Origin: Allorhodopirellula solitaria
Lineage (GTDB): Bacteria; Planctomycetota; Planctomycetia; Pirellulales; Pirellulaceae
DNA length: 64,000 nucleotides
Direction of reading: 5' to 3'
NCBI RefSeq assembly: GCF_007859855.1
Contig: NZ_SJPK01000001.1
Span: 62,001 to 126,000 of the forward strand
Position numbers and translations under genes: made by a program. The notes under the pieces are model-generated. The model did not search any database, was not told the origin of the DNA, and saw nothing but the letters and a program-made list of their open reading frames with translations. Positions 18,085-60,845 of the stretch are shown here, one piece after another. Position 1 is the stretch's first letter; each line of letters opens with the position of its first letter.

Positions 18085-18943
18085 TACCACGGTTCAAGCA
18101 ATCGCAATCAGCGGCGGGAATCCCCCCGCCCACCACGCACAGCACGTCGTCGGCTTGAGCACCTCCCCACTCCCGACGGGCGGAGCCGTCGGTCGACAAA
18201 ATCACCAAACCAATACGTCACTCCCGGCTGACTCAAGCTCAGCCCAATCACAGCAAGCAGATTTCGCCCCCCACCACGCGCAGCACGTCGTCGGCTCGAG
18301 CACCTCTCCACTCCCGACGGGCGGAGCCGTCGGTCGACATTGTAGCCAGACGGCTCCGCCCGTCTGAGCTGACACGCGCTAATCCGGCAAAGGCATCGGT
18401 CGACAAACTCACCAAACCAACGCGTCACTCCCGGCTGACTCAAGCTCAGCCCAATCACAGCAAGCAGACTTCGCCCCCCGCCCACCACGCACAACACGCA
18501 CAGCACGCCGTCGGCTTGAGCACCTCTCCCCACTCCCGACGGGCGGAGCCGTCGGTCGACATTGTAGCCAGACGGCTCCGCCCGTCTGAGCTGACACGCG
18601 CTAATCCGGCAAAGGCATCGGTCGACAAATTCACCAAACCAACGCGTCACTCTCGACTGACTCAAGCTCAGCCCAATCACAGAATGCAGACTTCGCCCCC
18701 CCACCACGCACAGCTCGCCATCGGCTCGAGCACCTCCCCACTCCCGACGGGCGGAGCCGTCGGTCGACATTGTAGCCAGACGGCTCCGCCCGTCTGAGCT
18801 GACACGCGCCCCGTCGATGCGCTACAGGCAGAGCTATCGGTCAACGATTGGGGGCCTCGCAAGGGACGGCAATGATCCGTAGAGTATCCAGTGCTCCCCA
18901 CATGCATTTACTCGTTTCTCCTGCATTTGATAGCTCGGTTTCT
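18085..18943. other. Intergenic region filled by a repeat array
   Basis: The region between the DUF1552 gene and zwf is almost entirely an array of four related palindromic units (18127-18810), described separately. Only about 130 bp before the zwf start is free of repeats and would hold its promoter. Open frames across the array on both strands are products of its repetitive composition. Confidence 0.75.
18127..18810 (+). repeat. Array of four palindromic units sharing a 23-bp core
   Basis: The core starts GACGGGCGGAGCCGTC and continues GGTCGAC. It occurs at 18175-18197, 18316-18338, 18538-18560 and 18746-18768. In units 2-4 it is followed by GACGGCTCCGCCCGTC at 18349, 18571 and 18779, giving a perfect 16-bp stem with a 17-nt loop. 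Around the cores are conserved blocks (CACCACGCACAGCACG, CTGACTCAAGCTCAGCCCAA, GCTAATCCGGCAAAGGCATC). Unit length is about 210-220 bp; unit 1 is shorter. The same core recurs in a coding region at 60330-60622. Confidence 0.92.
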
Positions 18944-47428: not shown

Positions 47429-48020
47429 GTTTTCCGCTGGCCTCCCTGAGCCAAAACAAACCATACAATTGATTTTCCGTGTAGGGGCGGAGGCTTGAGT
47501 CGTTGTCGCCGGGTACGCGCCCGGACTGACGGCAACACTCCCACGACTAGCTCGATCGGCCCGCTTCGGCAGGCCCTTCGGGCTTTTCGTCGTTACACCA
47601 CCACATCCCAAAGCCCCAGCGAGGCAACCCGATGACAGCCCCAGGCAACGCCTGGGGATCCCAACGCCAAAACATCCCAAAGCCCCAACGGGGCAACCCT
47701 ATGACAGCCCCAGGCAACGCCTGGGGACCCAAACGCCAACACAACCCAAAGCCCCAACGGGGCATCCCTACGACAGCCGCGGCAACGCCTGGGGATCCCA
47801 AACGCCAACACATCCCAAAGCCCCAACGGGGCATCCCTATGACAGCCCCAGGCAACGCCTGGGGATCCCAACGCCAAAACATCCCAAAGCCCCAACGGGG
47901 CAACCCTATGACAGCCCCAGGCAACGCCTGGGGATCCCAACGCCAACACAACCCAAAGCCCCAACGGGGCGGCCCTATTTCTGCGCCGCTAAACCAACAA
48001 TCCTCTAGAGATCGGTAACC
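47429..48020. other. Intergenic region with terminator-like hairpin and repeat array
   Basis: Behind the TolC-type gene, GGCCC-ttc-GGGC followed by TTTT (about 47572-47585) could be a weak terminator. The rest, 47606-47983, is a tandem repeat array listed separately, which ends 37 bp before the folP start. Open frames across it on both strands are a consequence of the 69-bp repeat length. Confidence 0.6.
47606..47983. repeat. 69-bp tandem repeat array, family C
   Basis: About five and a half copies of a 68-69 bp unit with start points near 47606, 47674, 47743, 47812, 47881 and 47950. Each contains two palindromes: GCCCCAACGGGGC and CCCCAGGCAACGCCTGGGG. Copies differ at a few positions; the first has AGCGAGGC and the third has CGCGGCAACGCC. 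Because the unit is a multiple of three and lacks stops in several frames, both strands show long open frames without being coding. A single diverged copy is at 51233-51330. Confidence 0.93.
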
Positions 48021-58826: not shown

Positions 58827-60845
58827 TCACTCTTTGCCGAGCTTATACAGCGGGAGATGGCGGTAATAGACTTCCAGGCAATAGATACTGAAGCACGTCG
58901 TATACAACCGACCCGATGCGTTGCCGTACTGGTCCGCTTGCGGCGACCAGCTGCCCGCTTCACTGCCCCGCTTGACCTGCATCGCGGGCAACACCTGTTT
59001 CATGTTGTCGTTCCAAATCCGCCATGCCGATCCACCGAAATGGTGCAGGGCCTGGGTTGCGTAGTACCAGTAATAAACGTTCATAGCCTCGCGTTCGATC
59101 GGCCAATCTTGGACCAGCGTATTGAGTCCGATCGCCATCGCTTCCCGCTCACGAGGCCAGCCCAGGTATTGGCGGCAGAGCAGCCCTTCGGCTGTCATGG
59201 TCTGACTCGCCGGCCGACCCTCTTGATAGCAGTACCCGGCGCCCCCTTCGACCGACACCCGGTCCAAATAACCCTGCACGGCCGCCAAAGTGGAATGCTC
59301 GACATGGATGCCCGCTGACTTGGCACTGATCAACGCCATCACGTACCACCCGGTCACCGACAAGTCCGAACCGCTACGGGGTTGATATCTCCAACCACCC
59401 TCCTGCGATTGAGCTCGCACCGAGAACTGCACGGCGGCTTCAGCTGATTGCCGCAACAACGAGTCTTGCGTCATACCGTATAGTTCGCAAATCGCGATCG
59501 TCGCTTGAGCATGCGCGTACGACTGCTGACGGTCGGGCTCATTGCCAGCGAAGAATCCGTTTCGCTTCGATTGCTTGTTCATCAGATACCGCAATCCCCG
59601 TTCGACGTTTTTCGCATAGGGACCATCGATGTGCGTGTTGCCATCACCCTGGAAAGCCAGCATCGCCATCGCGGTTGCCGCTGTCGTGTTTTCTTGGTAC
59701 GAGCCGTCGTCGTAGGGCCCCCGCAAGCTCCATGCGCCGTCTTTGCGTTGTTGTCGGGCCAACCACTTCAACCCCAACTCGACAGCTTGCGAGGTTTGCG
59801 GACTACCATCCATCGCCAACAACGCCGCTTTCATCGCGCCGCGGCGCCCGCCAAACATCGGCTTGACCACCATCTCCGACGAGGTCTCCCCCAGCTCCAC
59901 CGGCACCATCTCAGTCGGTTCGGCAATGTCGATCGATTCAATCAGAGACTCAACATCCATCTCGACTGGATCCTCGGTCACCTGATCCGCATCCTCCTGC
60001 TGTACATCCGAGTCAGAGCTTTCGAGCGTGTATTCCTTGAGATCAACGGACTCACTTTCCGTCGCTTCGCCGAGCTCCAGCACCATCGTGCGCAGACCGC
60101 TGGTCACCGGCAACGTCCACAGGGCCAGTGCCAGCAACAAGATAATGTGAACGATCATGCTCACCAGCCAAGCGGGGATCGACTTCCGCACCGGCAGGAG
60201 CAGTTCGTCATCCTCCTCGTCCTCAGCCGGCCTCGCCTCCCGCCCCGCCGCGAACGTCGCCGCCGTCGCCGCCGTCTTCACAGGCTGCTCACCCGGCACC
60301 TCCCCCCGCCACCGCGACCTCCGCCCATAGTCGACCGACGGCTCCGCCCGTCGCGAGCTACCCTCACCAGCACTACCCTCCAACCGCTCCGCCCGTCGCA
60401 AGCCCCCAGCCGCCACATTGTCGACCGACGGCTCCGCCCGTCGCGAGCTACCCCCACCAACACTACCATCCAACCGCTCCGCCCGTCGCAAGCCACCAGC
60501 CGCCACATTGTCGACCGACGGCTCCGCCCGTCGCGAGCCACCCCCACCAACACTACCATCCAACCGCTCCGCCCGTCGTGAGCCCCCAGCCGCCACATTG
60601 TCGACCGACGGCTCCGCCCGTCGCGAGCTACCTCCACCCCCATCACCAGGCGCAGCAACCGGTGGCAGCGTCGCACGTGGAGGAGGCGGCGGCGGCTGCT
60701 GCCGAGCCGGCTCAGACGCATTCGATTGAGGCGGAAGTGGCGGCGGAGGAGGCGGCTGTTGGGGCCCCTCCGGCGCACTTGCCTGAGGAGGGACCGGTGG
60801 CATGTCGCCTGAATCTGCGGTCGATAGAGGATCCGAATGGGACAT
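58827..60845 (-). CDS. Membrane-anchored prenyltransferase/squalene-cyclase repeat protein
   Basis: A 672-residue protein from the ATG at 60845 (MSHSDPLSTADSGDMPPVPP); the frame further upstream to 61307 runs antisense across a tRNA gene and is rejected. The first 60 residues are Pro-rich, then follow about 105 residues of a 30-residue tandem repeat (SRRAEPSVDNVAAGG and LRRAERLDGSVGGG). One membrane helix (AWLVSMIVHIILLLALALW) follows near residue 235. An acidic linker leads to a domain of alpha-alpha repeats like squalene-hopene cyclase or protein prenyltransferase beta subunits (GLKWLARQQRKDGAWSLRG, AVQFSVRAQSQEGGWRYQP). The DxDD-type acid motif of real cyclases was not seen. The role is unknown. 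Confidence 0.82.
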   Translation of the reverse strand: MSHSDPLSTADSGDMPPVPPQASAPEGPQQPPPPPPLPPQSNASEPARQQPPPPPPRATLPPVAAPGDGGGGSSRRAEPSVDNVAAGGSRRAERLDGSVGGGGSRRAEPSVDNVAAGGLRRAERLDGSVGGGSSRRAEPSVDNVAAGGLRRAERLEGSAGEGSSRRAEPSVDYGRRSRWRGEVPGEQPVKTAATAATFAAGREARPAEDEEDDELLLPVRKSIPAWLVSMIVHIILLLALALWTLPVTSGLRTMVLELGEATESESVDLKEYTLESSDSDVQQEDADQVTEDPVEMDVESLIESIDIAEPTEMVPVELGETSSEMVVKPMFGGRRGAMKAALLAMDGSPQTSQAVELGLKWLARQQRKDGAWSLRGPYDDGSYQENTTAATAMAMLAFQGDGNTHIDGPYAKNVERGLRYLMNKQSKRNGFFAGNEPDRQQSYAHAQATIAICELYGMTQDSLLRQSAEAAVQFSVRAQSQEGGWRYQPRSGSDLSVTGWYVMALISAKSAGIHVEHSTLAAVQGYLDRVSVEGGAGYCYQEGRPASQTMTAEGLLCRQYLGWPREREAMAIGLNTLVQDWPIEREAMNVYYWYYATQALHHFGGSAWRIWNDNMKQVLPAMQVKRGSEAGSWSPQADQYGNASGRLYTTCFSIYCLEVYYRHLPLYKLGKE
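60330..60640 (-). repeat. 90-bp in-frame tandem repeat sharing the intergenic core
   Basis: Core copies at 60330-60352, 60420-60442, 60510-60532 and 60600-60622 are spaced exactly 90 bp. Read on the coding strand the core is GACGGGCGGAGCCGTC then GGTCGAC, the same 23 bases as in the intergenic array at 18127-18810. Each unit also has a shortened second copy (GACGGGCGGAGCGGTT) that encodes the LRRAERL half. The result is a 30-residue protein repeat, about 3.5 copies. Confidence 0.93.

Follow-up and report, generated by a model that had tools for sequence, protein, structure and literature searches.

How does DNA that recurs through a genome as a short palindromic repeat come to encode part of a protein? 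The question is raised by the gene for a 672-residue membrane protein (58827 to 60845, minus strand) in the window, i.e., the whole 64,000-nucleotide stretch of Allorhodopirellula solitaria DNA that was analysed. A sequence-only reading had noticed about 3.5 tandem copies of a 90-bp unit within this gene and had proposed that a repeat was inserted and then grew in tandem and in frame. Here, we conclude that insertion of a palindromic REP-type element, tandem growth in place and the survival inside genes of frame-keeping units very probably form the best explanation of this array and of related arrays in other genes.

The mechanical list of open reading frames gives a longer frame for the host gene, reaching 61307 (826 aa). 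The ATG at 60845 is the likelier start because the N-terminus it opens (MSHSDP...) aligns with those of orthologues (MNHSEP, MSHSDP), and this start, chosen from the orthologues, is used throughout. The protein consists of a Pro-rich disordered N-terminus, the REP array, one predicted membrane helix (residues 225 to 244; 60114 to 60173, minus strand) and a C-terminal helical domain (residues ~337 to 662; 58860 to 59837, minus strand). The latter is delimited by modelled helices at residues 337 to 662 and matches the squalene-hopene-cyclase-like Pfam domain SQHop_cyclase_C, with the best stretch at residues 341 to 431. Hydropathy and an AlphaFold2 model, built from 8 aligned sequences and with a mean pLDDT of only 55.6, agree on the position of the membrane helix. 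In the model, residues 40 to 223, within which the array occupies residues 71 to 175, have a pLDDT <50 and lack secondary structure. Arg and Lys residues directly precede the membrane helix, in agreement with the cytoplasmic location that the sequence-only reading had proposed for the array. Homologues of the host protein are present in 40 of 40 genomes searched, its own genome counted.

TRF places the array at 60321 to 60638 (minus strand) with a period of 90 bp, 3.5 copies, 94% matches and 0% indels. It is made up of seven half-units in the order A B A B A B A, each exactly 45 bp (15 codons) long and all seven in frame: A1 (60591 to 60635; GGSSRRAEPSVDNVA), B1 (60546 to 60590; AGGSRRAERLDGSVG, a diverged copy of A), A2 (60501 to 60545), B2 (60456 to 60500), A3 (60411 to 60455), B3 (60366 to 60410) and A4 (60321 to 60365), all on the minus strand, with the end of A4 running into the host sequence RSRWRGEVP. 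The two types of half-unit read GGSSRRAEPSVDNVA (A) and AGGLRRAERLDGSVG (B). The first three A half-units are 0.96 to 0.98 identical to each other and 0.87 to 0.89 identical to the last, the B half-units are 0.91 to 0.93 identical to each other, and A and B half-units share an identity of 0.62 to 0.71, while the three 90-mers are 94 to 96% identical. Judged from these identities, the array is a two-level repeat, in which a 45-bp duplication would have been followed by divergence and then by growth of the 90-bp pair. The tandem copies reported by the sequence-only reading are thus borne out by TRF and lie in frame, whereas its description of the second half as shortened is wrong, since both halves measure 45 bp and the second has diverged from the first without losing length. 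Two further parts of that description hold in modified form. The segment, called Arg/Gly-rich, is indeed rich in Arg but nearly balanced in charge, with 18 Arg versus 15 Asp/Glu in 103 residues; and the array is near the membrane helix but not next to it, ending ~50 residues ahead.

The DNA of the array belongs to a family that is abundant in this genome. A 24-mer core (GACGGGCGGAGCCGTCGGTCGACA), searched with ≤3 mismatches and with the reversed pattern as a control, has 329 near-matches in the genome, whereas the control has 0, which excludes chance as the reason for its recurrence. Among 60 genomes searched, this one included, the only other carrier is a sister congener (G007) with 21 matches, every one with 1 to 3 mismatches; the other 58 have zero matches, and the core is absent from all 11 remaining genomes of the same genus. 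An exact 23-mer core has 0 matches in a collection of genome contigs, from which the records of this genome were possibly excluded, and an Rfam scan of the window at gathering thresholds gave nothing except a tRNA. The full element is a doublet of 62 bp, AGCTCGC-GACGGGCGGAGCCGTC-GGTCGACAAT-GTAGCCA-GACGGCTCCGCCCGTC-TGAGCT, with 317 BLAST matches in the genome. Its two arms of ~25 bp each are inverted, and the 62-mer folds as one long hairpin; the right arm has the form GTAGCCA-GACGGC..GCCGTC, with the GTAG tag described for REP elements in PMC3733652, a tag whose place in the left arm is taken by GTCG. It is the left-arm type to which the 45-bp unit of the window gene belongs. Accordingly, the earlier proposal that the intergenic palindromic core encodes the first half of the unit is right about the DNA family, but only one arm, not the whole element, is involved. 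The left arm is open in 6 of 6 frames; we had considered this as a special feature of the arm and rejected it because 27% of shuffled sequences are equally open. The full 62-mer is open in 4 of 6 frames, and at least 4 frames are open in 66% of its shuffles.

Copies of the core are frequently arranged in arrays, which we tabulated for 60 stretches of this genome plus the window; the counts of arrays given below are those of these stretches and, for the genome, lower bounds. The cores alternate in orientation in many arrays and share a single orientation in some, and in periodic arrays the phases with the tag inside and the tag outside look alike. Spacings differ among arrays and range from 36 to >300 bp. 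These varying periods suggest that much of the growth took place separately and in place; at the same time, a period of 77 bp recurs in five arrays, and some arrays may therefore share an origin. The window itself holds another array of the family, at 18174 to 18809 with a period of 222 bp, which lies outside any open reading frame with a coding score and at the matching place of which G007 has a single copy. In four stretches (L126, L139, L148 and L168), a second palindromic stretch of the CCTCGTGCGAAGCGCACATCGGCTG type lies directly ahead of the core. A longer repeated element that bears the REP doublet or an arm, with similar flanks, occurs at L125, L147, L153, L238 and L240 and at G007 L100 and L105.

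If the array arose by insertion, orthologues of the window gene would be expected to lack it or to hold fewer copies. We compared 15 N-terminal regions, i.e., those of this species, 12 relatives of the same genus and two members of other genera. The closest match to the 33-bp arm differs from it at 0 positions in this species, at 5 in G007 and at 13 to 16 in the other 13 regions. Shuffled controls (40 per region) gave a mean of ~15 mismatches and minima of 11 to 14, so that 13 of the 14 orthologues (11 of the same genus and both from other genera) resemble shuffled sequence and have no trace of the element. In G007, the closest relative by the window protein, a lone decayed unit occupies the orthologous site, which corresponds to half-unit A4; G007 reads SSRRAAQSIDNSQRSRWRGEVP where the array here ends with SSRRAEPSVDYGRRSRWRGEVP. 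Thus, the alignment of orthologues that the sequence-only reading had suggested finds the segment absent from the relatives or present as a single decayed copy; the alternative outcome it had named, a repeat with diverged codons shared by all distant orthologues, was looked for and is not what the orthologues display. The insertion with subsequent in-frame growth that it had proposed is supported by this pattern. Because the G007 unit is at the same site, the common ancestor of the two species most likely had a unit already, from which an array was built in this species, unless G007 has lost one.

The comparison with G007 extends to other loci. Fifteen of the 21 places with a match in G007 were fetched, and alignment coordinates were used to judge whether places are the same. 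At six of the 15, the genome studied here has its own element at the same place, although for two of these (L103 and L106) the match is limited to a single flank. One of the shared loci is the window array at 18174 to 18809. At four of the six, the same-strand cores of this species number 2, 4, 7 and 11, versus one core in G007 (≤5 mismatches); at the other two, each species has one core. Six more of the 15 loci yielded no match. Three were left uncounted: L108, for which the array here lies >1 kb off by coordinates, and L100 and L105, which belong to the repeated longer element. Rather than reflecting the ancestral state, a single copy in G007 could be what is left of an array that shrank there, which counts against the history proposed below.

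In the fetched stretches, seven genes, the window gene included, contain in-frame arrays flanked on either side by coding sequence. The gene for TrpE (C3:678320-680335) has four cores with a 45-bp unit between Anth_synt_I_N and Chorismate_bind. Twelve of 12 relatives of the same genus align to it as two pieces that flank the array; in G008 and G003, residues 284 and 357 fall on adjacent bases, i.e., the site is empty, and G007 has a single decayed unit (SSTDDSAPHANQT, 9 of 33 mismatches). In the gene for RecQ (C4:271124-274297), a 36-bp unit is repeated between RQC and HRDC, and G007 has one unit that is read in the same frame and differs at 3 of 23 positions. In a polyketide synthase (PKS; C10:62245-66981, an interval that lies within an open frame of 3248 aa), eight units of 78 bp follow PKS_DH_N; the array of ~208 residues is absent from all seven relatives aligned, among them G007, which has a weak fossil with 10 of 33 mismatches. 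A polyprenyl synthetase (PPS; C9:160130-162040) has ten units of 75 bp before its catalytic domain, and a BSP-type peptidase (C9:146249-147874), for which only two of 12 relatives, G007 and G003, have a match, has four units of 36 bp; the G007 orthologues of these two have no element or fossil at the site. The G007 orthologue of the peptidase (L215), which is free of REPs, has a short tandem repeat of its own, NDHSV x3, near the same place. The seventh gene encodes a WS/DGAT-like protein (C10:59348-61339; six units of 114 bp), an assignment made from the reading frame and from a match to an NCBIfam family that falls below its cut-off. Altogether, five genes besides the window gene have an in-frame array here where the site in relatives is empty or has a single copy, with PKS as the weakest case; the background windows used for the mismatch comparison in G007 include known copies. 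Lone in-frame copies occur at L165 (HrpB-like), L162 (HemN-like) and L154 (a 390-aa protein).

Arrays inside genes follow a rule that most others do not. In the seven genic arrays, 32 of 32 same-strand spacings are divisible by 3, versus 30 of 133 in the 26 arrays unassigned to genes; arrays with only multiple-of-3 spacings number 7 of 7 and 2 of 26, respectively (Fisher 8.4e-6). Six of the genic arrays were classed as such with the support of orthologues; for the rest, the division into genic and non-genic arrays depends in part on open frames. With these six alone, the counts are 6 of 6 versus 2 of 26 (Fisher 3.1e-5). Four arrays for which just one flank has evidence of coding (C2 TPR, C2 503-aa, C7 483-aa and C26) were left out of the genic count; three of the four have only multiple-of-3 spacings, and if all four are placed with the non-genic arrays, the six orthologue-supported genes still differ from the rest (2.4e-4). 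Purifying selection on the reading frame would give this pattern. No one peptide is common to these genes. The arm reads SRRAEPSVD in the window gene, VDRRLRPS in PKS, the BSP-type peptidase and the WS/DGAT-like protein, with a variant VDRRLRSS in RecQ, and STDGSARR in TrpE and STDGSDRR in PPS. That the arm is read in three frames across seven genes argues that the DNA, and not the peptide, is the replicating unit.

We suggest the following history, the order of events being our inference. A palindromic REP-type element would have spread in the common ancestor of this species and G007, and copies would have landed next to genes and, in several cases, in frame within them. In this species, many copies would then have grown in tandem on the spot, the unit length often being particular to the array. 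The disordered N-terminal linker of the window protein would have received one arm, after which a 45-bp unit duplicated, the copies diverged into A and B, and the 90-bp pair grew to 3.5 copies. Within genes, survival would have been limited to units that keep the frame. Slippage or unequal recombination at hairpins would be the simplest route of growth, and the resulting peptides are probably tolerated near-neutrally as flexible linkers.

Other explanations fit parts of these data. The segment could be an old functional protein repeat, e.g., an Arg/Gly-rich binding segment, whose DNA merely resembles, or has seeded, the intergenic repeat. In favour of this, the array keeps the frame and its product is a regular 30-residue repeat rich in Arg, Gly and Ser; however, 13 of 14 orthologues have no repeat, 26 of the 37 tabulated arrays are unassigned to genes, and other proteins read the same DNA in other frames or on the other strand (SRRAEPSVD, VDRRLRPSR, STDGSARRE) with no conserved peptide, making this origin very improbable. 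We give equally little credence to the idea that the arrays are artefacts of assembly. The assembly is a draft of 62 contigs and the repeats exceed the length of short reads, and for this reason array lengths may be wrong; but the array units bear private variants, several arrays adjoin flanks that are collinear with G007, and exact frame is kept in genic arrays and not in most others.

A more serious alternative accepts insertion as proposed and holds that the expansion was then selected, with the repeat number tuning linker length or charge in proteins such as the membrane protein, TrpE and RecQ. The arrays in TrpE, RecQ, PKS, PPS and the window protein lie between domains or in stretches predicted to be disordered, and the linkers of the window-protein orthologues are long and of low complexity. 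Linkers, however, are also the places where neutral insertions survive, unrelated proteins carry different frames and peptides, and tandem growth is equally common in arrays unassigned to genes. We therefore regard selected expansion as unlikely, if less so than the two preceding ideas, and retain the preferred reading of insertion, in-place growth and frame-keeping survival. A bolder extension of that reading, which strikes us as possible but doubtful, is that REP arms have recently been amplified in place across the genome of this lineage, a process that would generate new disordered linkers; one and the same DNA, in different frames, would have lengthened at least seven unrelated proteins. 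If so, a lengthened TrpE and a lengthened RecQ helicase would be among the products, and the alteration of RecQ could affect repeat stability.

The element resembles the GTAG super-family of REPs and REPINs as described in PMC3733652 (Di Nocera 2013) and PMC3116915 (Bertels and Rainey 2011). According to the former, REPs occur inside genes, many of them for DNA synthesis and repair, REP clusters within genes of Thauera and R. conorii encode 43 to 82 residues, and tandem reiteration of REPs takes in flanking DNA; the latter describes tandem REPIN clusters that include flanks. Common to these systems and the family described here are short palindromes in high copy number, inverted doublets, tandem clusters with flanking DNA and occasional in-frame copies within genes; the GTAG tag beside the GACGGC..GCCGTC stem is seen on one arm. 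Unlike in those descriptions, one arm here has GTCG versus GTAG on the other, no associated RAYT was found in the genome, and the arrays reach ~208 to 250 residues, compared to 43 to 82 for the larger REP-encoded regions named in one section of PMC3733652. RAYTs may instead have unrelated TIRs at their flanks according to the same paper, and flanking by a RAYT thus defines RAYT-linked REPINs and not every REP family. Also unlike the described cases, several arrays here are in core enzymes, and lone decayed copies persist in the sister genome.

Rickettsia palindromic elements (RPE) were reportedly described by Ogata in 2000 and 2002. In the accounts of PMC10969869 and PMC2229807, RPE are inserts of ~105 to 150 bp in Rickettsia genes that encode a conserved peptide. 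As with RPE so described, palindromic selfish DNA lies in frame in conserved protein genes, here those for TrpE, RecQ, PKS, PPS, the BSP-type peptidase and the window protein, and is apparently tolerated; by that description, the two differ in that the doublet here is ~62 bp, is read in several frames and is amplified in tandem inside genes. PARCEL repeats, given in PMC2996958 as a widely spread amphipathic motif of 25 residues, are likewise tandem protein repeats from DNA with dyad symmetry, some of them in membrane proteins; by this description they differ from the present peptides, which depend on the frame and are found in one species pair.

Since intragenic REPs and tandem REPs have each been published, both ingredients are known. 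Among the titles and abstract openings listed from one open-licensed library, mostly the top of longer lists, we found no description of the combination of intragenic, in-frame and tandem REPs. What seems to be new is this combination, the size of the arrays (~208 to 250 residues in PKS and PPS, calculated as units x unit length) and the single-copy snapshots in a sister species. The pair of genomes offers a before-and-after view of selfish DNA becoming protein, with one worn copy or none in the sister versus an array here in several unrelated proteins. It allows testing of how far core enzymes tolerate sequence that is non-adaptive and driven by DNA, how REP arrays grow and whether they ever turn into useful linkers.

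With regard to mobilization, the genome has 16 matches to Y1 transposases, and 0 of 16 are flanked by this element; the nearest copy is nearly 4 kb away, at a pair of matches on C1 that is the sole pair with a copy in the fetched flanks. No enzyme for spread or amplification is linked to the element by these matches, which weighs against the proposed history. In G007 (L179), a worn copy at C2:1713464 lies ~1.1 kb from a Y1 match at 1714563, and another Y1 match is at 1716960. Y1 genes at L172 (C4:119206-120349) and L125 (C1:490130) lie near a different GTAG hairpin, GTAGGGCCGGTTCCYACCGGCCAC, which may belong to another REP family served by a transposase of its own. The window also contains, at 47598 to 47978, a different tandem repeat with a 69-bp unit, 5.5 copies, 91% matches and a palindromic look (CCCCAGGCAACGCCTGGGG).
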